A stretch of 48,662 bases of DNA from assembly GCA_009782785.1 (NCBI GenBank), contig WRIJ01000014.1:1-48662 (forward strand), written 5' to 3'. Origin of the DNA: Propionibacteriaceae bacterium (GTDB lineage Bacteria; Actinomycetota; Actinomycetes; Propionibacteriales; Propionibacteriaceae). Both the position numbers and the translations under genes were made by a program. Within the stretch, counting starts at the first letter, position 1. Each line of letters starts with the position of its first letter. The notes beneath the pieces are model-generated. The model did not search any database. It saw nothing but the letters and a program-made list of their open reading frames with translations, and was not told the origin of the DNA. This document shows, piece by piece, positions 963-18,889 of this stretch.

Positions 963-1657
963 AGGTACCCACAGCGGTCCGAGAGCCAACCTGGAACGGA
1001 TATATAGAATTCCAGGCCGGGGTGCCCACCGCGGGCAACGAGAGTATATCCTAGTCAAGCAGGCGATTTAGCCCAAATCGGCCCATTTCTTATCAAGATG
1101 TTATCCACAACCTGCTCTGGGGGCATCAGGAACTACCGAGCCGCCTCACCAAGCTAGCTCACCGTGACGTACTAATCCTCCTGTGAGCAGCAGTCACACC
1201 CAGGAGTAGGGACCCGAGACAAGGCCTCATCCCACAGTCGTCGCGCCTCAGTCTGCTTTTGGCTCAACATGACACCAGCAAAAGACAGCCCAGCGAGGAT
1301 CAACACCAAGTACAAGAACTTTTTCATACCCCCAGTCTCTCACGGCCCGCCAATAGCCTCAACCATCCACTGAATCTGATGAGTGGGGTGGCACCCATTC
1401 AAACACTTGATATCCACCCGAGACCCCCACATGAGTGTCCATCATGGTGGGACACAAATGTTGAAGAGCTCCGTACTTCAAGCGTAGAAACCGGCAATAA
1501 ACCCCCGCTCGGACAACAACATGACACCAATGCGACAATTCCGCCACCACCATGGAGACACATTCGCATTTGCGACAGCAAATACCGCGTCTCGGCCAAC
1601 GCAGAAGGCAACAGACACAGAGTTGAGTGGGGTTTCAACAACAATGAGGGGAGTCTC
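963..1657. other. Long upstream region with a single perfect DnaA box
   Basis: About 700 bases separate the tRNA from the preferred start of the next gene. An in-frame extension of that gene from TTG 1259 is open but reads as low-information, H/P/T-rich sequence with no family resemblance, so I leave it out. TTATCCACA at 1101-1109 matches the DnaA-box consensus exactly. It stands alone, so it is not evidence of an origin. Nothing else is recognised. Confidence 0.35.
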
Positions 1658-2350
1658 ATGAAGGTTCAATCAGCACGAGCGACAATGATCCAGTTCTATC
1701 CTATGGCCGCAGGTGAATCACCAGGAGTTATCATTTCGCGACTTAACCGAGAATGGGAAGAGTATGCTCAACAAGTTCCTACCTGGGCCTCCAACTGCGC
1801 AACGATGGCAATGGTGCTCCACAGCATTCGATTCGACCCAGATCGTGTACTCAGTGAACTCATTTCAGCATGTCAAAAAGGTGATCGACTTGCTGGGCGC
1901 GTGATCGTGCAGGCACTGCTGCCCAAAATCATCCTCATGGCATCAACCAACCCGTACCCTCCCATAGAGCACATTCTTTCTGCTCTGTGGATCCGCATAG
2001 CCCATTATCGCCTGGATAGGCGCCCATGCTGTGTGGCAGCAAACCTTACTCTCGATGCGCGCAAGGATGCTGTGGCAGAATGCCGAGTACGGGTGAGTGC
2101 CCCTCAAGAACATGTGGAAGACCAGGAAAAACACACGGCCGAAGAGATAATTGACACCGCCCGAGATCTCAGGTTGGCGACCTCACAATCATTAAACATC
2201 GTGGAAAAGGTGTACGTCGATGGACTTCCCAGTGCGCAGGTCGCGAGCCTCTACAACATGAGTCCAGCAGCAGTACGACGGCGCTGCTCGGACACTGTTC
2301 GGCGTCTTCGAGACCAGCGACACCTTCTCTATGACGTAGTCGCCGGTTAG
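1658..2350 (+). CDS. Sigma-70 region-4-like helix-turn-helix protein, actinobacterial hypothetical
   Basis: A 230-residue protein starting at ATG 1658 behind the purine-rich ribosome site TGAGGGGAG. The middle part (CQKGDRLAGRVIVQALLP, then SALWIRIAHYRLDRRP and VAANLTLDARKD) follows the layout of a recurrent actinobacterial family I know only as hypothetical or sigma-like. The last 55 residues (EKVYVDGLPSAQVASLYNMS, then AVRRRCSDTVRRLRDQ) look like a sigma region 4 or LuxR-type HTH, suggesting DNA binding. No sigma region 2 with a convincing -10 recognition helix is visible, so it is probably not a functioning sigma factor. The frame is open upstream to TTG 1259; the shorter start is chosen for its ribosome site and family likeness. 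The S4 gene begins 20 bases downstream. Confidence 0.65.
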   Translation: MKVQSARATMIQFYPMAAGESPGVIISRLNREWEEYAQQVPTWASNCATMAMVLHSIRFDPDRVLSELISACQKGDRLAGRVIVQALLPKIILMASTNPYPPIEHILSALWIRIAHYRLDRRPCCVAANLTLDARKDAVAECRVRVSAPQEHVEDQEKHTAEEIIDTARDLRLATSQSLNIVEKVYVDGLPSAQVASLYNMSPAAVRRRCSDTVRRLRDQRHLLYDVVAG

Positions 2351-2835: not shown

Positions 2836-3327
2836 ATGAATATTCGTCGCATACTTGTGGGGGCCACAACCCTGTGTCTCCTGGGTACTTTGAGTGGTTG
2901 TGGTTTCTTCTCTGGTGACAAGCGCGATCCGGATGGACGAGTGACCGCCTCAACGAATATCGATGCTTTCTCTCTCCAGGTCGGCGACTGTATCATCACT
3001 GCTGATTTGGGTGATCAGTTCACAGAAATTCCGGTTGTTCCTTGTGGTGAAGCCCACGATGCTGAAGTCTTTCATTCTTTCGATATGCCTGACGGTGATT
3101 ATGACGCTGACGAACTCAAGGAGAATGGAAACAGAGTCTGTTACGGGACAGTGAAAGAATACGTTGGCCCGAATTACTACAAAGTCACTGAACTTGGGTT
3201 GGATGTTTATTACCTCGGCCCAACACCATCCTCCTGGAGCAATGGGGATCGTACGGTCACCTGCATTGCCAATGCTGCATCTGGGGAAAGCGAACTGACC
3301 TCCAGCGTCAAAGGAATGGGCAACTAG
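2836..3327 (+). CDS. Lipoprotein with septum-formation-like domain
   Basis: A 163-residue lipoprotein. The signal peptide ends in the lipobox LSGC with lipidated Cys22; start ATG 2836 follows AAAGGTGGA. The exported part begins LQVGDCI and has the V-x-C...HDAEV pattern, a central Cys and a C-terminal TCIANA, as in the Septum_form domain (PF13845) of actinobacterial exported proteins. The protein closely matches the C-terminal half of the membrane protein at 4950-6128, down to the ending ELTSSVKGxG, so one arose from the other or both were copied as a domain. It faces the LRV array in convergent orientation. Its ligand is unknown. The four cysteines probably form two disulfides. Confidence 0.8.
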   Translation: MNIRRILVGATTLCLLGTLSGCGFFSGDKRDPDGRVTASTNIDAFSLQVGDCIITADLGDQFTEIPVVPCGEAHDAEVFHSFDMPDGDYDADELKENGNRVCYGTVKEYVGPNYYKVTELGLDVYYLGPTPSSWSNGDRTVTCIANAASGESELTSSVKGMGN

Positions 3328-3395
3328 CACCACTAGATGCGCACCCCCCCCCAGGGAAGGGCATCGCCCACCCAGCGACGGCTACCAGCAGGTTC

Positions 3396-4931
3396 TCACC
3401 AGTAGGTAAACTCTCGAGAGTTCATGAAGAATCCGTGATGGGTACTCGTATCCCAACACAGGACTCCCTCATCTTGGCTTCGGCAAGCAACATCACCCAT
3501 GTTTGCCACCGTACCTTCTGCCAGTGTAGGAATCGACAATCCTTCGCTCTTGTTGTTTGCCCATGGCGGTACATCTCCATACCATTGCCCGCTCACAGTG
3601 CCGTTGCTGAGGATGGGAGCAACAGATCCTCCCGTCACAGGTTTCTCTGGCGTGATGTCACCAGGCAGGCTCCACGATTGGTTCTTCGTCTCACAAAACA
3701 CCATGCCAGGACCATAAGCATCAGTCGTACATCCGATATTTCCGTTTGGTGTGGAGAACTGGGTGAAGGTCATGTACTGCCCTTGAACACGAGGAGTGGT
3801 AGCACTGTACGGCATCCCCTCACAAACCACGTTATCAATACCGTTGGGTAGCAGTACGCCACCAGGACACTTGGTTTGCTGACTGGTTTTGATGACAGAG
3901 ATCGCCTCTTTAAGTTCACCCAAACTTGCATCGACAGACTCCACCATGGTGGTGCGTTCCATAAGGTTGAAGGTTGTACGGGTTTGCAGAGCAGAATCGA
4001 TCACCTCTTTCAAGGCAATACGATTGGCTTCTTCTTTCACCAGACCTTCTGATGATTCGTACACTGCTTGTGCTTCTTCGATAGCCGCAGAGAGTAGCTC
4101 CCCCAGGTACTCCATACGGCTTTCATCGACTTGGAGAGTCTTCGCGCTCAGAGTCTCTGTCGCTTTCTGTACGACGGCTGTGGTCTCTTCCAAGGTAGCT
4201 ATCTGGAGTTTCGTTTCACCAGTGGAGGAAGCCTTCGCGGGAGTCTTGTCCTCTATATGTGGGGTGGCACTGACAATTTCTGCAGCTAATGCCTCATGCA
4301 GGAGGGGATCTTTCAACTGATCTGCCTCGGTGATCTCCAGTGACTCGGTGGCATCAGCCACAGCGGTAGTGAGCGCATCCCGTGCCGTACCATATTCCTC
4401 AACCGCTGTGTCAAAATCCTTGTTCAACATCGAGGGTTGGATGACGAAAAAGAAAACCGCCACCCCAATGCCAGCAAGCAGGACAAGTCCCCCAAGGACG
4501 GATCCGATAATGATCGGTTTCTTCTTTGAGCTCTTCTCCCCCGATTCGCCATCAGCCGATGGTGATGCCGAACCCTCAGAGGTCGGCGATGGCGTCAATG
4601 CCCACGGTGAACTCTCCGAGTGTGTCGCAGGATCAAATGCTGCAGGTGGTTCAAAACTGACCGCAGGGAAGGCGGCCTGTTCAGGGTATGCCATGGGGTC
4701 CATGATCGCTGTTGCAGCCTCACGAGCTTCTCGTTGACGCAAAGCCTCATGAACAGCTTCATCACCGTACTGCTCAATATGGGCAAGCAACCCCGGATAA
4801 GCATTCGGATGTTTGGCTACCTCAACCCAAAGATCCTGGTGATGAGTGGTGATAGTGAGAAGATCCTCATCCGACGTGGCGGCGTCATTCAGAGCAGCTC
4901 TGGCTAGGTTGCGGTCATCGATGAGACTCAC
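3396..4931 (-). CDS. LRV-domain membrane protein with DUF6636-like exported domain (array member 4)
   Basis: A 511-residue one-pass membrane protein. Residues 1-70 are a variant leucine-rich-repeat (LRV) segment with motifs DEDLLTITTHHQDLW and VAKHPNAYPGLLAHI. A Pro/Ser/Glu-rich linker and a KKK stop lead into a transmembrane helix at about 140-164. Outside lies a helical region (165-340), then a Cys-containing domain with PNGNIGC, GVLCWD and THHGFFMNS typical of DUF6636. The N-terminus is therefore cytosolic and the C-terminus extracellular. It begins with GTG after AAGGGG, 18 bases behind the 6128-4950 gene, so the two are almost certainly cotranscribed. Function unknown. It is closest in layout to the proteins at 8530-10173 and 6239-8335. 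Confidence 0.8.
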   Translation of the reverse strand: MSLIDDRNLARAALNDAATSDEDLLTITTHHQDLWVEVAKHPNAYPGLLAHIEQYGDEAVHEALRQREAREAATAIMDPMAYPEQAAFPAVSFEPPAAFDPATHSESSPWALTPSPTSEGSASPSADGESGEKSSKKKPIIIGSVLGGLVLLAGIGVAVFFFVIQPSMLNKDFDTAVEEYGTARDALTTAVADATESLEITEADQLKDPLLHEALAAEIVSATPHIEDKTPAKASSTGETKLQIATLEETTAVVQKATETLSAKTLQVDESRMEYLGELLSAAIEEAQAVYESSEGLVKEEANRIALKEVIDSALQTRTTFNLMERTTMVESVDASLGELKEAISVIKTSQQTKCPGGVLLPNGIDNVVCEGMPYSATTPRVQGQYMTFTQFSTPNGNIGCTTDAYGPGMVFCETKNQSWSLPGDITPEKPVTGGSVAPILSNGTVSGQWYGDVPPWANNKSEGLSIPTLAEGTVANMGDVACRSQDEGVLCWDTSTHHGFFMNSREFTYW

Positions 4932-4949
4932 GATGGTACCCCTTTTCTT

Positions 4950-6128
4950 TTACTTTCCTTTACCCTTCACACTTGAGGTGAGCTCAGTACGTTCTGACTT
5001 CGCATAAGCGAGACAGGCGATCGTGCGATCACCATTCTGCCAGGAATTCTCTGATGGAGCGAAAAAAGTCAGCCCCAACCCCCGTGAAGAGACAAAACTG
5101 TGTCGCGACCCCACATAGTCAAGCATGGCTTGAGTGCAGGTGTCTTTGGCAGTTTTTTCTACAGTCGCTTCGACATAGTCATCCCCAGTGGCCTCAAAAA
5201 CTTTGATGATTTCGGAATCATGCGGTGTGCTGCAGGCTACGCGTGGAACGGATTGGAATCGCCCCTCAAGGTGGCGGATAATCAAACAGTCACCGAGAGC
5301 CAGATTCTTCACATCAACCCCATTGGTTACCATAGACTTGATATCTTCCACGAGGGTGTCGAGGTCGTTGACCACCTGGCGTACGTTCAAGGTTGAAGTA
5401 TTGAGTTCATTGACTTGGTCGCGGATCTCTACAGCTGTTTCGCCCATGTCACCGGGTTCAGCGACGAGGGTCCTCGCCTGCTCGATCCCTTGGGCAAGAT
5501 TCTCTAAAAGGGAAGGATCGTCAAGTTGTTCAATGGTCGTCGATTCTTGAATATCTATAGCATCTCGTAGGGAGCTGAACAGTGAATCCTGCGCTAAGCG
5601 GTAGCTTGAAACGGCTTGCTCGTAGTCATCGGTGGCTTGGATGAGCGCTTGACGAGGTTGGACAACCAGGATGGAAACCAGAGCAATGGCCAGGAGAACT
5701 ATCCCTATCGAGACAGCCGAATAGAGCATTGTTCGGGTCTTCAGTTTTCCTGGAATGAGATGCTTGCGTGTCTTCTCAGGTGTGGGGTACGCCGGTTCAT
5801 GCTCGGCCCTTGAGTCGATATCGTGAGAGTACGAGTTCAGGGACGGCCGTGGTTGCGCGGAGGCCCCACTACTGTACGCCGACTGGGGTCTTCTCGTCCG
5901 AGGTAGGTTCGTATGCGGCGGATCGGGATCTCGTGGTCGAGAACGTAATGCTTCAAGAACCGCGTCATCACCTTTCTCTTCAAGGAAGGCTAGAAGAGAC
6001 GGGTACGCATGAGGGTGTGCAGCAATCAACGGCCACAGGTCTGGGCGCTTTTGAGCAATGGAGGTGAGATCATGTGCTGAAGCCGAAGGACTCTCCACGA
6101 CTACTCTGGCAGCATCAAAATTACTCAC
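4950..6128 (-). CDS. LRV-domain membrane protein with septum-formation-like exported domain (array member 3)
   Basis: A 392-residue paralogue with a different ectodomain from its neighbours. Residues 1-62 form the LRV segment (DLTSIAQKRPDLWPLIAAHP, then AYPSLLAFLEEKGDDAV). A basic linker precedes a transmembrane helix at 134-156. The external helical region runs to about 270. The final 118 residues repeat the lipoprotein at 2836-3327: GDCLI (Cys281), Cys299 before HDSEI, Cys331, and the SWQNGDRTIACLA block with Cys372. The end, ELTSSVKGKGK, is nearly the lipoprotein's. The DUF6636-type domain of the other three members is absent. The array thus keeps a constant cytosolic module and swaps the sensor-like outside module. 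Confidence 0.8.
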   Translation of the reverse strand: MSNFDAARVVVESPSASAHDLTSIAQKRPDLWPLIAAHPHAYPSLLAFLEEKGDDAVLEALRSRPRDPDPPHTNLPRTRRPQSAYSSGASAQPRPSLNSYSHDIDSRAEHEPAYPTPEKTRKHLIPGKLKTRTMLYSAVSIGIVLLAIALVSILVVQPRQALIQATDDYEQAVSSYRLAQDSLFSSLRDAIDIQESTTIEQLDDPSLLENLAQGIEQARTLVAEPGDMGETAVEIRDQVNELNTSTLNVRQVVNDLDTLVEDIKSMVTNGVDVKNLALGDCLIIRHLEGRFQSVPRVACSTPHDSEIIKVFEATGDDYVEATVEKTAKDTCTQAMLDYVGSRHSFVSSRGLGLTFFAPSENSWQNGDRTIACLAYAKSERTELTSSVKGKGK

Positions 6129-6238
6129 TGCATTGTCCCTTTCACCTGGCGCGACAATCTGTCAGGAAAAGAATACCGGCTGGAGGGGATTGGCGTCTTG
6201 TCGGTTGGTTCAAGAAACTTTCCGCACCTGGGAGTGGA

Positions 6239-8335
6239 TCACCAGCGAGTGAAAGAATCCTTATTGACACGGAAGCCGTGATGTGACGTGACATCCCAGC
6301 ACACCGCACCTTGTTCTGTACTCAAACAAGCAACATCACCGAAGTCTGCAACTTTGCCCACTTTGAGTACGGGTGCTTTGACACCATTCGACTGGTTACT
6401 TTGCCAAGGTTGAGCACTATAGGAGCTTGTCCCTCGTACCTCACTGTTGGTGATCGTTGCATGGCAGGGTGCTGAGGTGATGCAGTCGTTGCCTACCGAG
6501 TCTGGGAAATCCCACTTTCGTTCAGGTACTTCACAAATCATGGCACCAGTAGTGAAAGCATCCTTCGTACAGCCCACATCACCTGACGGTAGTGAGAACT
6601 GTATCGTGGAGCGCCCACTGACTTTGGTGACACTAGCATCCTCAGGCATGCCTCCACACACCATGGCATCAATACCTGGGGGAAGAACCGTACCGTTCTC
6701 GCACTTGGTCTTTTTCACAGCCAGTACGGCGTTGGTCGCCATTTCGAGTGCAGCTCGTTGTTCTGCAATAGTTTCCAGAACACTCTCGTGATTCGTGGTG
6801 TTCACGGCATCAATGTTTTGCCTCGCAGCAGTGAGCACAGTCAGCAAGCTTTGGCGTACTGCATCATCAGGTACGAGCCCTTCAGACGTGTCATAGAGTT
6901 CTTGGGCAGAATTCATCAACTCGGTCACGGCAATGGTAGCAATCTGGGCTCTATTAGAGTTCACGTCCGAGGTTGCATTACCCACACTTGCTGTCATAGC
7001 AACAATTTGTTCCCTGCGAGTGTTCAACCGCTTAGTTTCGGCACGGATTGCTTTCGTTGTGGCTGGCATTTCTGGAGAAACATCCAAGAGCTCATTGGCA
7101 TCAGCGATCGTTGATTCGAGAGTGGTCAACAAGGTGAGGTTGTCGACTTCGTCTTCCCCAACAGTGGCTAGAGTCTGCTCAGCTTGGCCTATAGCATTGC
7201 GCAACTCTTGCTGAGTAGTTTCGTAGTGTTCTTTCGCTGACCTAAAGTCTGCACGAGCCTGATAAGGCATGAGCAGGGCCATAATCAGTATCAAAACGAC
7301 AGCAAGGAAGGCAATCACTCCAGCAATGACCCACGGCGTCATGGGCTTCTTTTTGCTGGAAGGCTTTTTAACAGTCTTTTTAACAGTCTTCTTGGGTTTG
7401 TCTTTGCTGGTTGACACCTCTGTTTCATCGGTGTCGTCTTGGTCGGATTCGTCCTCGTCTGTTTCTTTGTCAGATTCTGGATCAGAGTCTTCTTGAGACT
7501 TTTTATCCGATTTCTTGTCCGATGTCTGGTCAGCTTCGTCATCATCGGTGTCAAAGTCAGCATCAATGTCGAATTCATCATCGAGGTCTAGGTCAATGTC
7601 GTCGACTATCTCTTTAGCATCCTCTTTCACCTTGACCGCATCGTCGCGTACCTCACGCTCAACAGTCTTCACTGTTGCTGGTTTATCCAAGTCGATCTCG
7701 TCGAGATAATCATCAATGTCGTCGAGTGATGCTTTGAGCTCTTCAACAGGTTTGCGGTGAATATTCGGGTTGTTCCAGTCTTCGAAGATTTCGTCAAGAG
7801 CTGAATCGATACTCTTGGATTCGCTTGTACGTAGCGGTCTGCGTACTGGAGGTGTGGGGGGGAGGCGCAAAGGGTCGCCGATTGAGGTGGTGGGTTTGTC
7901 CACGTTGAGTCGCGCCCGATCAGTCACTCGGGAGGTGCGCTCTGAAGTGAGGCGAGTACGCTCAGTGGAGGTACGCGTCGACAGGCTTGATGACCCCCCG
8001 CGATCGGTCGATAGCCGAGGACGAGTCAAGGAATCCGGTGTCGGGACTTCGTCGCGTGCACTACGGAAACTTGATGTCGTGGAAGCAGTACGAGAGGTGG
8101 AGAACTCGTCGCTAGTCGACTGGGTTGTTCGTGGACGCAGCGAAGTCGAACGTGTTGTTCTGGTTGACGCGGGTTGGCTTGCCAGTTTCTTTAAAGCTGA
8201 TTCAGCATTGGCGTGACCAGCAGCTCTGTCCAAAAGATCTGGATGTGCTGCGGCTATCGCCATGAGTTCGGCACCGGTTGTACTCGGTTGACGCAAGGCT
8301 GCTAGAGCTGCCCCTCGAAGTTGCATGTCACGCAC
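6239..8335 (-). CDS. LRV-domain membrane protein with long acidic linker and DUF6636-like domain (array member 2)
   Basis: At 698 residues this is the longest array member. Residues 1-50 carry a reduced LRV segment (TTGAELMAIAAAHPDLLDRAA). Residues 55-175 are a Ser/Thr/Arg-rich tract. Residues 175-310 are extremely acidic (runs of D, E and S), ending in a Lys-rich block (311-330) just before a transmembrane helix at 334-357. Outside come a helical region and a C-terminal domain with LPSGDVGCTKDA, GAVCWD and SHHGFRVN, matching the other DUF6636-type members. The opposite charges of the linker and Lys block may let the cytosolic tail fold back on the membrane; that is inference. Start GTG 8335; an ATG lies three codons in. 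Confidence 0.75.
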   Translation of the reverse strand: MRDMQLRGAALAALRQPSTTGAELMAIAAAHPDLLDRAAGHANAESALKKLASQPASTRTTRSTSLRPRTTQSTSDEFSTSRTASTTSSFRSARDEVPTPDSLTRPRLSTDRGGSSSLSTRTSTERTRLTSERTSRVTDRARLNVDKPTTSIGDPLRLPPTPPVRRPLRTSESKSIDSALDEIFEDWNNPNIHRKPVEELKASLDDIDDYLDEIDLDKPATVKTVEREVRDDAVKVKEDAKEIVDDIDLDLDDEFDIDADFDTDDDEADQTSDKKSDKKSQEDSDPESDKETDEDESDQDDTDETEVSTSKDKPKKTVKKTVKKPSSKKKPMTPWVIAGVIAFLAVVLILIMALLMPYQARADFRSAKEHYETTQQELRNAIGQAEQTLATVGEDEVDNLTLLTTLESTIADANELLDVSPEMPATTKAIRAETKRLNTRREQIVAMTASVGNATSDVNSNRAQIATIAVTELMNSAQELYDTSEGLVPDDAVRQSLLTVLTAARQNIDAVNTTNHESVLETIAEQRAALEMATNAVLAVKKTKCENGTVLPPGIDAMVCGGMPEDASVTKVSGRSTIQFSLPSGDVGCTKDAFTTGAMICEVPERKWDFPDSVGNDCITSAPCHATITNSEVRGTSSYSAQPWQSNQSNGVKAPVLKVGKVADFGDVACLSTEQGAVCWDVTSHHGFRVNKDSFTRW

Positions 8336-8529
8336 ATCTGCTCCTCAGAATCTGGTATTCGCAACAAATACTGCCGTTCTGTCATCCATGCGAGCATGAA
8401 CCTACGACGGCGATATGTCAGTCTATTCGCTCGCGGACAAGGTTCCAAGTCGTGTTGAGATTTGCCTCCAGAGCTTGCACCATCGGGCCTGGCCTATCTT
8501 TTTCATCGCACCAGCCACCCAAGTGGCGT

Positions 8530-10173
8530 TCACCAGTGCAGGAATCGGTCCCGGTTGATGAGAAAACCATGGTGGGTATCAATGTCCCAACATATGACTC
8601 CATCTTCAGTACTCAAACAGGCAACCTGTCCCATATTGGCTGCTTGCCCATAGTTGAGGGTAGGTACTTGACTCCCCTGACTGCGACTATTAGCCCAATC
8701 ACCCACCCCTTGATTCCACAGGCCCTCAACTCTGCCGTTTTCGATAGCTGGTTGTGGATCACCGGTCACACCTGGGGGATTATTTACCTTGAGCTCCCCT
8801 GGCATCGACCAGGAGCGATTAATGATCTCGCACGTGAAATTCAAATACGACGATGCCGTACAGCCAATATTTCCGCTCGGCATTTGGAACTGGGCGATAG
8901 TGCCCCAACCAACATTGACTCGCGGGTAGGTGGCACCAGCAGGCATACCACCACAGACAGCCTCGGGAATCCCCGGCGGGAGCAGGATTCCATTGGAACA
9001 TTTCTTAGACTGCCCGGCTCGTACTGCATCCAAGCGTGAAGCCAACTCTTTGAGACTGCTACCGGCTGCTTGCGACATGGTATCTCGATCCATGGATGCT
9101 AGTTCTGAGACAATCCTGTTCGTGTCCTCGATGGCGTTACCCAGGGCAACCCGAGTCTGTTCATCAGCCACAGCTCCATTCGATTCCTCAAACACTTGCC
9201 GAGCTTCAGTTAAAAGGTTAGTGAACTGAGTACGGTAGTACTCAATGCGAGAATCATCCATAGCTTTCGTTGTCGCAGTCAGTGAGTCCACTTCTTGCAG
9301 TACGAGCGTGGTCGCCTCAGTCATCGTTGTGACCTGCTCGCGCACCTCAGCAGTGGATTGGGCTTTATCTGGAGCAAAATCAACGTACTCTTCTGCGTCC
9401 GTGATCTCCTGCTGAAGCTTTTCGAGTAGCGAACTGTCACTGAGGTGATCCGATCCCGTGAGAAGGACATCAGAATTAGTGAGGTGGAGGGAAGCCTTAG
9501 CATCAACAATGGCGAGGCTGAGTTTGTCTTGTGCCGCAGAGAACTCTTCCACAGCACTGTCAAAATCTGTTCCGGTTGAGGATGGCTGAATCACAAAGAA
9601 AAAAAGCACGGCACCAATTCCGCCCAGAAGGGCAACACCCCCAGCAATCGCACCAATAAGGATAGCAGTCTTGTTGGATTTCTTCTCAGGTGGGGTGGCC
9701 AAGTATTCAGGAGGTACCATCCCTGGTGGTGCCATCACCGCATTCGGGTTGAAACCAGTCTGTGGGTCATAGCGCCCGTGAGGATCACGATAGGCCGCTT
9801 GGTTGAGAAGGTCCTCCCCCAGTGGAGCCACACCCGGGTCCGTACCGTGAAAGGTTCCAGGAGTCACCATGACTGGGGAAATCTCCATAGGCAATCCAGC
9901 AACTGGATTATCGATAGCCATCTCAGCGCCCACAGGCGTGGGGTTCACTGCAGGTTCGCCATCGGTCGTACCGCGTTGGTTGATCGCCTCTTGGACAACA
10001 GCGCCCCCGTACTGGCCAAGATGAGTGAGCAAATCAGGATAAGTATTGGGATGTTTGGCGATATCGACCCAAAGTCCTGGGTGATGGTTGGTTATCGCGA
10101 GAAGATCCTCAGGAGTCGTGGCAGGATCTTCCAAGGCACGTTGGGCAGTCTCGAAATCGACCAAGTCACTCAT
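8530..10173 (-). CDS. LRV-domain membrane protein with DUF6636-like exported domain (array member 1)
   Basis: First gene of the minus-strand array, 547 residues. The start ATG at 10173 is chosen because GGAGGT lies seven bases upstream; an open frame continues 26 codons further. Residues 10-65 are the LRV segment (PEDLLAITNHHPGLW, VDIAKHPNTYPDLL). A Pro/Gly/Met-rich linker with FNPN and PPGMVPPEY follows, then a transmembrane helix at 169-195, an external helical region and the C-terminal domain with MPSGNIGCTA, GVICWD and THHGFLIN. The transmembrane segment and the sequence FFFVIQPS after it are nearly identical to the 3396-4931 protein, so these two are the most recent duplicates. Confidence 0.8.
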   Translation of the reverse strand: MSDLVDFETAQRALEDPATTPEDLLAITNHHPGLWVDIAKHPNTYPDLLTHLGQYGGAVVQEAINQRGTTDGEPAVNPTPVGAEMAIDNPVAGLPMEISPVMVTPGTFHGTDPGVAPLGEDLLNQAAYRDPHGRYDPQTGFNPNAVMAPPGMVPPEYLATPPEKKSNKTAILIGAIAGGVALLGGIGAVLFFFVIQPSSTGTDFDSAVEEFSAAQDKLSLAIVDAKASLHLTNSDVLLTGSDHLSDSSLLEKLQQEITDAEEYVDFAPDKAQSTAEVREQVTTMTEATTLVLQEVDSLTATTKAMDDSRIEYYRTQFTNLLTEARQVFEESNGAVADEQTRVALGNAIEDTNRIVSELASMDRDTMSQAAGSSLKELASRLDAVRAGQSKKCSNGILLPPGIPEAVCGGMPAGATYPRVNVGWGTIAQFQMPSGNIGCTASSYLNFTCEIINRSWSMPGELKVNNPPGVTGDPQPAIENGRVEGLWNQGVGDWANSRSQGSQVPTLNYGQAANMGQVACLSTEDGVICWDIDTHHGFLINRDRFLHW

Positions 10174-10496: not shown

Positions 10497-11921
10497 ATGT
10501 TTAAGAATCTACAGCAGGCACAAGACTACTGCCGCGACAATGGAATCAAAATGGTCGACTTCATGATGATCGATCTGAATGGACGCTGGAGGCATCTCAC
10601 CATCCCTGCCGAGAGGCTCACCGAGCACACCATGGAGCACGGGATTGGTTTCGACGGCTCCAACTATGGGTTTGCACCCATTGAGAAGTCGGACATGATT
10701 TTCGTTCCTGATCTGTCGAGTGCCTATGTCGATGAATTTTCTTCCGTACCCACTGTGGCCATGATCGGTGATGTTTTCGTCATCGATCTGCCGAAGAACC
10801 GCCGCTTTGATCAGGATCCTCGCAACGTGGCGTACCACGCACAGGAATACATGAAGAAGTCGGGTATTGCCGACGAAATGCGCATTGGCCCTGAGTACGA
10901 ATTCCACGTATTTGACCATGTGTCCTATGAGGTGAGTCCACACAACACGAGGTACACCCTCGACTCTGAGCAGGCGGAATGGAATTCTGGTGACGAGATC
11001 CACAACCTGGGTTACAAGATGGCGAAAAAGGGTGGGTACCACATGGCACCGCCACTGGATCAGCTCAGTGATTTCCGTTCCGAGGTTGTGATGCTGATGG
11101 AAAACCAGGGCATTCAGGTTAAATACCATCACCATGAGGTTGGTGGCCCAGGTCAGCTGGAGATCGAAGTCGAATTCGGCGGAATGATGGAAATGGCTGA
11201 CAAGACCATGATGGCCAAGCATCTCATCAAGAACTATGCGGTGAGTGTCGACAAATCAGTCACCTTCATGCCGAAACCTCTCTATGAAGAAGCTGGCAAT
11301 GGGATGCACGTCCACATGCACTTGTTCAAGGGTGGCAAGCCACTGTTCTATTCCGAGGAAGGGTACGCCCAACTTTCAGAAATGGCACACCATTTCATCG
11401 GTGGACTACTCACCCACGCACGCGCCCTGTGTGCCTTCACCAATCCGTCAACCAACTCGTACAAACGCCTTGTGCCTGGGTACGAGGCTCCTGTGACTAT
11501 TGGGTACGCCACCTCGAATCGTTCGAGTGTGATTCGTATTCCGGCGTACGCAAAAGCGCCCATGGATAAGCGTTTCGAACTGCGCTCACCAGATGCCACC
11601 TGCAACCCGTACTATGCTTTCGCAGCAATACTCATGGCGGGCCTGGATGGGGTCAAGAACAAGATCAGCCCTGAGGGTCATGGCCCATATGACTTCAACC
11701 TCTATAACCTGACAGCTGATGAGCAGAAGAAGATTGAGCAACTTCCTCGTACCTTGGATGAGGCCCTTGATGCTCTCGAAGCTGATCATGACTTCCTGAC
11801 TGAAGGTGGGGTCTTCCCCCAGCGCCTGATCGATATCTGGCTGGAGAACAAGAGGGCTGAAGCGGCACGCTGCTCCCAGATTCCACACCCCGTGGAGTTT
11901 GAGCTGTACTACGACCTGTAA
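10497..11921 (+). CDS. glnA: Glutamine synthetase, type I
   Basis: A 474-residue type I glutamine synthetase: ATP + glutamate + ammonia to glutamine. Signature elements in order: FDGSNYGFAPIEKSDM (N-terminal beta-grasp), EYEFHVFD (metal-binding Glu), HHHEVGGPGQLEIE, NGMHVHMHLF, TNPSTNSYKRLVPGYEAP and NRSSVIRIP, and a C-terminal ELYYDL. Tyr403 in FNLYNLT lies where adenylylated enzymes carry their target tyrosine. The details (KAPMDKRFELRSPDATCNPYYAF) differ from the usual actinobacterial GlnA1 (which has RxEVRFPDPxANPYLAF there) and remind me of enzymes from anaerobic Firmicutes-like lineages, so transfer is possible. ATG follows GAGACGAGGAA. It stands alone, bounded by repeats. Confidence 0.95.
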   Translation: MFKNLQQAQDYCRDNGIKMVDFMMIDLNGRWRHLTIPAERLTEHTMEHGIGFDGSNYGFAPIEKSDMIFVPDLSSAYVDEFSSVPTVAMIGDVFVIDLPKNRRFDQDPRNVAYHAQEYMKKSGIADEMRIGPEYEFHVFDHVSYEVSPHNTRYTLDSEQAEWNSGDEIHNLGYKMAKKGGYHMAPPLDQLSDFRSEVVMLMENQGIQVKYHHHEVGGPGQLEIEVEFGGMMEMADKTMMAKHLIKNYAVSVDKSVTFMPKPLYEEAGNGMHVHMHLFKGGKPLFYSEEGYAQLSEMAHHFIGGLLTHARALCAFTNPSTNSYKRLVPGYEAPVTIGYATSNRSSVIRIPAYAKAPMDKRFELRSPDATCNPYYAFAAILMAGLDGVKNKISPEGHGPYDFNLYNLTADEQKKIEQLPRTLDEALDALEADHDFLTEGGVFPQRLIDIWLENKRAEAARCSQIPHPVEFELYYDL

Positions 11922-17845: not shown

Positions 17846-17911
17846 GAAAAATCGTGGTGCGATGAGTGGGTTGAGTGATCAGCCAACCACTGCTTAGTGA
17901 AGGGAGCAGGA

Positions 17912-18889
17912 ATGACTAAGCAGGGATGGCATCCAGATCCTGGTGGTCTCAAAGGATCCTATCGATATTGGGATGGTTCCCAGTGGTCCCAAGCTCTTTC
18001 CCCTTCCCCGCATGCTCCTGCTCCAGACCCGGCCTTATCGCCACTGGATGGAGATTCTTCGTCGTTCAACCCGGCAGCTCCCATGGAGGGGGGCCAGTCA
18101 TCAGCTGGCGACGATGATGCTTATGACATTTATTCGATTGGTGCCACGAAAACCAAGCCACCATTGGCCTTGATGGCGTTCGTCACCCTTGTTTTCCTTC
18201 TGGTCGTGGGCCTCGTGGGTTTCCTCGTTGGCACATTCGTCTGGAACCCGTTTCATCCGATCGGTGAGAAAACCGAACTACCAGGACTGATCAACGACGG
18301 TGATCCGACCGAAATCTGCCCAAGAAAACCTGATGCCAATGAGCGTAAGGATCATCCCAAGCGGGACGGTCGACTCTATGGGGGGCGTCTGTCCTTCCCA
18401 CAATTAGGCTCACCATGGTCGAGGCCGAATTATGGTGAAACTCGCGTACCTTTCGGTCGTGACACTGCTGAACAATCAGTGAAGATCCATAAGAACAAAA
18501 ACCGGAAGGGGGCCTGGTCCTATTGGGTCGCCTCGCTCTTGGTGGGTGAACTCAATGCTGGGGATGGATTCTATTCCCCTGAAGAGGGTTCCAAGATCGT
18601 CAACAAATGCATCTATGGCTCTTTTTACGGCCAGGAAGACTTGGTGACCCCGGAGGTTCTCAGATCAGAGGCCTATCAGGTCGATGGGTACGAAGGGTGG
18701 TACACCGAAACGAATCTGACCTTCGATATCCAGGGACTACCGACAAAAAACGAGATCGCCATCGTCATCATCGTTCGTACCTCAGAAATGTCGTCCTCGA
18801 TTTTCTTTGCCTCCATCCCTGGGGATGCAATGTACCTTCGCCCAGATGTGGAGTACGCGATCGCCAACCTCCGCGTTCATCCTAACTGA
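17912..18889 (+). CDS. DUF2510-domain membrane protein
   Basis: A 325-residue protein. The N-terminus GWHPDPGG, then YRYWDGSQWS (residues 4-26), is the DUF2510 domain, common at the cytosolic end of actinobacterial membrane proteins. A Pro-rich linker leads to a transmembrane helix at about 83-110. The remaining external domain of about 210 residues (with GRLSFPQLGSPW and GDGFYSPEEG) has one obvious Cys (in NKCIYG) plus one near the membrane, and I do not recognise it. ATG 17912 is chosen over 17897 for AAGGGAGCAGG. It lies about 65 bases behind the L,D-transpeptidase gene in the same direction and may belong to its transcript. It converges with ileS. Confidence 0.75.
   Translation: MTKQGWHPDPGGLKGSYRYWDGSQWSQALSPSPHAPAPDPALSPLDGDSSSFNPAAPMEGGQSSAGDDDAYDIYSIGATKTKPPLALMAFVTLVFLLVVGLVGFLVGTFVWNPFHPIGEKTELPGLINDGDPTEICPRKPDANERKDHPKRDGRLYGGRLSFPQLGSPWSRPNYGETRVPFGRDTAEQSVKIHKNKNRKGAWSYWVASLLVGELNAGDGFYSPEEGSKIVNKCIYGSFYGQEDLVTPEVLRSEAYQVDGYEGWYTETNLTFDIQGLPTKNEIAIVIIVRTSEMSSSIFFASIPGDAMYLRPDVEYAIANLRVHPN

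Follow-up and report, generated by a model that had tools for sequence, protein, structure and literature searches.

Introduction

The closest described relatives of the genes reported here are the membrane proteins of Actinomycetes that combine LRV_2 (PF25591) with DUF7937 (PF25592), the exported DUF6636 (PF20341) proteins, also of Actinomycetes, and the Septum_form (PF13845) proteins. A looser parallel is found in actinobacterial Ser/Thr kinases of the PknB/PknD type, in which a kinase domain is followed by a transmembrane (TM) segment and a PASTA or propeller domain. Here, we describe an array of four tandem genes for putative membrane proteins with LRV segments (G5, G4, G3, and G2) and an adjacent lipoprotein gene (G1), located at positions 2836 to 10173 of contig WRIJ01000014.1 (the window; 48,662 nucleotides) from a bacterium closely related to termite-gut Propionibacteriaceae (genome G000).

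The array proteins share LRV_2 on a membrane-protein tail with the DUF7937 proteins; however, LRV_2 is C-terminal in those polytopic proteins, whereas in the array it is N-terminal on single-pass, duplicated proteins with predicted exported heads. Three of the heads are homologous to the DUF6636 proteins and show the same GNIGC ... HGF pattern, but the DUF6636 proteins in our sample are mostly short exported or lipid-anchored forms, while the array heads stand on an LRV, a TM segment, and a stalk. The heads of G1 and G3 exceed the Pfam cut-off for Septum_form, and G3, unlike Septum_form proteins, also carries an LRV and half a stalk. The likeness to PknB/PknD-type kinases (i.e., one inside domain with exchangeable outside heads) is an analogy only; G2 to G5 have no kinase domain, and the LRV has no known activity. 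A search of open-licence papers gave, among the matches listed, no description of LRV_2, of DUF6636, or of their combination, and the matches listed for LRV terms concern Leishmania viruses or their hosts. The domains themselves are known Pfam families.

Results

The array is real and is conserved between two sister species, and it belongs to a larger modular expansion. All five genes of the original prediction are present, with a DUF6636-like head in three of the tandem genes and a Septum_form head in one. G2 (3396 to 4931, minus strand; 511 amino acids [aa]) and G5 (8530 to 10173, minus strand; 547 aa counted from the start at 10173 of an open reading frame [ORF] that extends to 10251) encode an LRV_2 domain, a linker, a TM segment, a helical stalk, and a DUF6636-like head. 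G3 (4950 to 6128, minus strand; 392 aa) encodes LRV_2, a linker, a TM segment, the first half of the stalk, and a Septum_form head, and G4 (6239 to 8335, minus strand; 698 aa) encodes a short LRV, a long linker, a TM segment, the stalk, and a DUF6636-like head. The prediction that one LRV segment is kept in all four genes held in full for three of them: LRV_2 exceeded its cut-off of 27 bits in G2 (58.9 bits; E, 5e-16), G3 (62.3 bits; E, 4e-17), and G5 (66.3 bits; E, 2e-18), but the match of G4 (15.3 bits; E, 0.02) lies below the cut-off and covers residues 10 to 49 only. The first 51 residues of G4 are 82% identical in the sister species described below. Each of the four proteins has one hydrophobic segment, and the membrane topology is predicted from charge and hydrophobicity. 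The linkers differ greatly in length, as anticipated (ca. 64 to 278 residues, with borders set by hand); that of G4 has a Ser/Thr/Arg-rich stretch followed by an acidic one.

G1 (2836 to 3327, plus strand) is the lone Septum_form head that had been expected, on a lipobox (LSGC) recognized by eye. Septum_form exceeded its cut-off of 25 bits in both G1 (40.9 bits; E, 2e-10) and G3 (44.8 bits; E, 1e-11), although the matches cover only positions 125 to 227 and 127 to 227, respectively, of the 227-position profile. The two heads are 37% identical over 118 aligned residues and end in a near-identical tail (ELTSSVKG). A part in septation for these heads would rest on the family name.

The Pfam scan left the DUF6636 match of G5 (14.7 bits; E, 0.033) below the cut-off of 27 bits and listed none for G2 and G4. 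A seven-row profile of stalk and head, however, matched an alignment of nine DUF6636-type proteins in a profile-profile comparison (99.4%; E, 6e-21), these nine having been picked from the matches of the same stalk and head profile. Seven of the nine were Pfam scanned, and six of these exceed the PF20341 cut-off; among all eight exported proteins scanned, which include those seven, seven match PF20341 and six do so above the cut-off. We therefore term the heads of G2, G4, and G5 DUF6636-like, i.e., homologous by profile and not Pfam members. Within the array, blastp relates G2 to G5 (E, 4e-128), G2 to G4 (E, 1e-57), and G1 to G3 (E, 2e-27), so that homology in the array is far beyond chance; the stalk and head of G4 are homologous to those of G2 and G5.

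The two kinds of head appear to be unrelated, as the original prediction held. No match was found between them by hhalign (probability, 0.4%; E, 0.15), and AlphaFold2 models of the full chains of G2 and G3 suggest different folds. In the G2 model (11 rows; mean predicted local distance difference test score [pLDDT], 84), the LRV is helical (blocks at 92 to 95), the linker is disordered (below 50 at residues 78 to 147), the TM segment and stalk form long helices, and the head is all-beta (blocks at 79 to 96). The G3 model (7 rows; mean pLDDT, 70) has an alpha+beta head with a 29-residue helix and flanking strands, predicted at low confidence (blocks at 31 to 88). As far as these models go, and the Septum_form one is weak, the heads do not share a single fold.

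The LRV, TM, and head parts had been recognized correctly, but the helical stalk behind the TM segment had been missed. It is common to G2 through G5 and to a protein on another contig (C1a); it is long in G2, G4, and G5, and only its first half is present in G3 (2 to 102 of the A3 profile) and C1a (3 to 108). Both sister species also have a protein with a TM segment and a stalk-like part and no LRV (locus L239, 2651 to 3598, C3 of G000, and locus L240, 3084 to 4286, in the sister genome; A3 match E, 5e-5 and 5e-6), flanked by rpsA-like and polA-like genes, as judged by eye.

The nearest genome found is the metagenome-assembled genome (MAG) Nt197P3bin23 (G003), from the gut of Neocapritermes; Nt197 is listed as Neocapritermes taracua (PMC7024585). 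The array is syntenic in this sister species and thus is not confined to one strain. Contig WRIC01000011.1 carries glnA (96% identical), orthologues of G4, G3, and G2, the lipoprotein gene (G1 orthologue, 51% identical over the head), and a sigma-like gene. G5 is absent from this array. The sister G3 orthologue starts at the linker and keeps the TM segment, stalk, and head, and no LRV was found upstream of it in any of the three frames. Another contig of the same MAG (locus L116) encodes a TM segment, a stalk, and a DUF6636-like head, again with no LRV. This protein was considered as a G5 orthologue and not adopted, since its identity to G2, G4, and G5 is much the same (37, 34, and 35%, respectively). 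The LRV had been described as a fixed end; given its absence from these two proteins and its short form in G4, that description fails, and no end of the array proteins is strictly fixed.

The substitution rates of the parts were compared by nonsynonymous substitutions (dN) only, as synonymous ones (dS) were not computable in 5 of the 15 array segments and near saturation elsewhere. Between the sisters, LRVs and heads change less than stalks and linkers, both in identity (LRV, 69 to 82%; heads, 51 to 67%; stalk, 43 to 48%; linkers, 31 to 40%) and in dN (0.17 to 0.22, 0.27 to 0.43, 0.45 to 0.53, and 0.61 to 0.93, respectively). The LRV is the slowest-changing segment in G2 and G4. Every array segment changes faster than the neighboring glnA (dN, 0.03) and the gene next to it (dN, 0.09), and dN is below dS in every array segment with a computable dS. 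Slower change at both ends than in the middle agrees with function at the inside end as well as the outside end.

LRV_2 was detected (E, 0.001) in 16 of the 19 genomes of the genus, with up to 10 matches per genome, and in 17 of 57 relatives, the one outside the genus belonging to another family of the same order. In a class-wide sample, 62 of 394 genomes had LRV_2 (51 of them over the cut-off), and 59 of the 62 had one or two matches, with the best 15 candidates at most scored per genome. A near full-length stalk and DUF6636 gene is present in 4 of the 19 genus genomes (three in G000, three in G003 [one with no LRV], and one each in G004 and G013), and 8 of the 19 have some match to the stalk and head profile. 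Such a gene also occurs in the MAGs Cu122P5bin14 (L118; 31% identity) and Nc150P5bin2 (L119; 27% identity), which are from Cubitermes ugandensis and Nasutitermes corniger, respectively (PMC7024585). In the class sample, 22 of 296 genomes had a match to this profile, which in genomes other than G000 involved the head only. LRV combined with a DUF6636-like head was found in two other families (L147, f6, and L160/L128, f46; own hidden Markov model [HMM], with LRV_2 by Pfam); Pfam at an E of 0.01 did not list DUF6636 for L147, L118, or L119. The multi-gene array itself was observed in G000 and G003 only.

Other arrays occur in the genus. In one genome (G010; C69), four LRV genes of full length that carry propeller-type parts stand in a row with a short LRV ORF, and several LRV genes are also arrayed in G010 (C16) and G007 (C76). 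At one array end in G010 (L071, 16100 to 17064), a 99-aa LRV ORF is followed by a propeller fragment with no TM segment, which looks like a decayed member. A genus member with no LRV_2 match (G008) carries three tandem Septum_form membrane proteins (L249, 1331 to 4619), i.e., a head-family array with no LRV. Outside the window, G000 encodes four more LRV proteins with other heads (L012, 8243 to 11312; L013, 5783 to 7099; L014, 4453 to 5235); the L014 protein has half an LRV only (E, 0.006), joined almost directly to the TM segment. In Actinomyces vulturis, an ORF that resembles a lipoprotein and ends in a DUF6636-like part (L121, 7359 to 10696; own HMM E, 5e-7; no Pfam match) lies at a distance of 1.8 kb from one for an LRV protein whose C-terminal part has a hydrophobic segment.

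A TM segment is predicted in 41 of the 42 class-sample ORFs with a strong LRV (own HMM; E, <1e-8), the LRV being C-terminal in 32 and N-terminal in 9; 55 LRV regions of the class sample were taken, with the weakest left out. Pfam placed DUF7937 in both scanned class-sample ORFs (L142 and L149) and a xanthine/uracil permease in L157. Among 65 collected LRV ORFs (64 from the genus and one from G034), 62 have a predicted TM segment, all in the genus, and 29 of the 40 single-TM ORFs carry more Lys and Arg on the LRV side. The non-LRV parts of 64 of the 65 fell into 10 single-linkage groups and 20 singletons (blastp E, 1e-4), a grouping in which members can be joined by the stalk alone and which is not a count of folds. 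Partner families were scanned in a 56-row set (A2) made of 61 LRV ORFs (60 from the genus and one from G034) minus six, plus one LRV-less relative; those left out were the very long L045 and L062 (Pfam scanned separately), L048 (contig end), L068 (G034; no TM segment), and short ORFs in L070 and L071. Among the best 25 of 31 families at an E of 0.01, not all of them over their Pfam cut-offs, were PrsW (7/56), DUF5122 propeller repeats (3/56), SLH, F5/8C, and Septum_form (2/56 each), and PASTA, NPCBM, and LRR (1/56 each). PASTA and NPCBM stand on one LRV protein of the genus, and G004 has a protein of the order LRV, TM, and PASTA.

In a tree of LRVs (67 columns for 66 rows, which is few), C1a and C1b are sisters (Shimodaira-Hasegawa-like approximate likelihood ratio test [SH-aLRT], 98), and their heads have no blastp match at an E of 1, in line with the predicted modularity of the parts. 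The LRVs of G2, sister G2, G5, and a G013 protein group together (SH-aLRT, 99), so that LRV and head are also inherited together. Those of G4 (with a long-branch warning), G004, Cu122, and Nc150 lie apart from this group, although their heads are of the same type; exchange or poor resolution may be the cause. The original prediction of growth by duplication and domain swapping is supported in that head exchange is likely for the family, as judged from these sequences, but the order of events in the array is not settled by the stalk tree, in which 7 of 11 inner forks are open, nor is an origin of G3 from a G2-like gene. Since A5 includes rows that bear DUF6636, we set aside a comparison between A5 and A6.

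The genes G5, G4, G3, and G2 are co-oriented, span 10173 to 3396 in that order, and are separated by 194, 110, and 18 bases; the array is divergent from the synteny anchor glnA (10497 to 11921, plus strand; TIGR00653 E, 9e-164) and convergent with G1. On the other side stands a gene (1259 to 2350, plus strand) with a C-terminal sigma-region-4-like stretch (Sigma70_r4 E, 0.0038; below the cut-off), which is kept beside the sister array (locus L078; 62% identity over 229 residues). Farther along the window, a gene at 17897 to 18889 encodes an N-terminal DUF2510 domain (PF10708; E, 2e-8), another small domain at the position that the LRV takes in the array genes, and envelope genes are numerous between 13818 and 34989 (LytR_C, YkuD L,D-transpeptidase, a transglycosylase/transpeptidase penicillin-binding protein, and MurJ).

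Discussion

We propose that the array encodes single-pass membrane proteins assembled from exchangeable parts. LRV_2, a small cytosolic helical-repeat domain, would be a docking tail, with a disordered linker between it and a single TM helix. On the outer side, a small head would be borne by a helical stalk; in the array, the head is DUF6636-like or Septum_form, and across the genus many further kinds occur. The LRV would dock either on a shared cytosolic partner or on the LRV tails of other proteins, and the heads would bind envelope or extracellular ligands. In this way, a single machinery inside the cell could receive different outside inputs or attachments. Lipoprotein G1 would present a head of this kind with no coupling to the inside. 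Since one tail is common to such different membrane proteins, docking seems the best explanation, and we put the chances that LRV_2 serves many envelope-facing, ligand-binding heads as a common cytosolic docking tail at about even. SLH, F5/8C, PASTA, and NPCBM are wall- or sugar-binding domain types, and analogy with them suggests wall or glycan ligands for the heads in which they occur. The partner, ligand, topology, and output (signaling or tethering) of the LRV proteins are inferred, and the labels "signaling" and "sensor" of the original prediction should be read as presumptive.

Several observations weigh against a docking tail shared by ligand-binding heads. The sister G3 orthologue and the L116 protein have no LRV, and heads of the DUF6636-like and Septum_form kinds are also found with no LRV, in lipoproteins or other exported proteins. 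When our HMM was applied at an E of 0.01, 12 of 53 class-sample ORFs had no predicted TM segment, most of them with several LRV-like repeats; 11 of the TM-less ORFs are weaker, mostly multi-repeat matches, which indicates that the presence of LRV-type repeats does not in itself mark a membrane tail. The positive-inside rule fails in 11 of the 40 single-TM LRV ORFs. No LRV partner and no head ligand were found. At the array, neither promoter-like sites (2 versus 5.0 in shuffles) nor terminator-like sites (7 versus 7.3) were in excess, and co-transcription therefore rests on orientation and spacing.

The alternative that survives best, although we consider it somewhat unlikely, is that these are attachment proteins whose heads bind wall polymers, carbohydrate, or gut surfaces and whose LRV and linker form an inner anchor or positioning tag that passes no signal. 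The SLH, F5/8C, and combined PASTA and NPCBM heads of the genus would suit such a role, as would the LRV-less forms and the Pfam scan of G2 to G5, in which no catalytic domain was found beside the LRV and no Pkinase match at an E of 1 (the four Pkinase matches of G000 are all on other contigs), so that these are not receptor Ser/Thr kinases. An anchor is less easily reconciled with the LRV being the slowest-changing segment of G2 and G4 and with its presence on permease, DUF7937, and PrsW-type proteins, which are not adhesins. More improbable is a tag for biogenesis, trafficking, or turnover of membrane proteins that acts independently of head function. Such a tag could explain why the LRV stands at either terminus of membrane proteins of several functions and why its presence differs between close orthologues (G3 and sister G3), but the one or two matches in most class-sample genomes with LRV_2 argue against a general membrane-protein tag. 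Finally, a diversifying surface array, antigen-like or phage-receptor-like and selected for variable heads, is very improbable: the tandem copies, the fast divergence relative to glnA, the gene-number change between sisters, and the seemingly decayed member in G010 would be expected of it, but the heads change less than stalk, TM segment, and linker, and dN is below dS wherever dS could be computed.

The docking-tail reading can be extended to a general cytosolic socket. Exchangeable-head receptors, PrsW-type intramembrane proteases, DUF7937 proteins, and permeases would then all connect to one cytosolic partner. Together they would form a network that senses the envelope with no kinase and that has undergone expansion in a single genus of Propionibacteriaceae, represented here by gut MAGs; we regard this broader proposal as tentative and rather doubtful. 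If LRV_2 is a shared docking tail, the finding of one partner would open the way to understanding what dozens of membrane proteins of actinobacteria do. It would also provide a case from bacteria in which receptors diversify by exchanging heads while the inner domain is non-catalytic.

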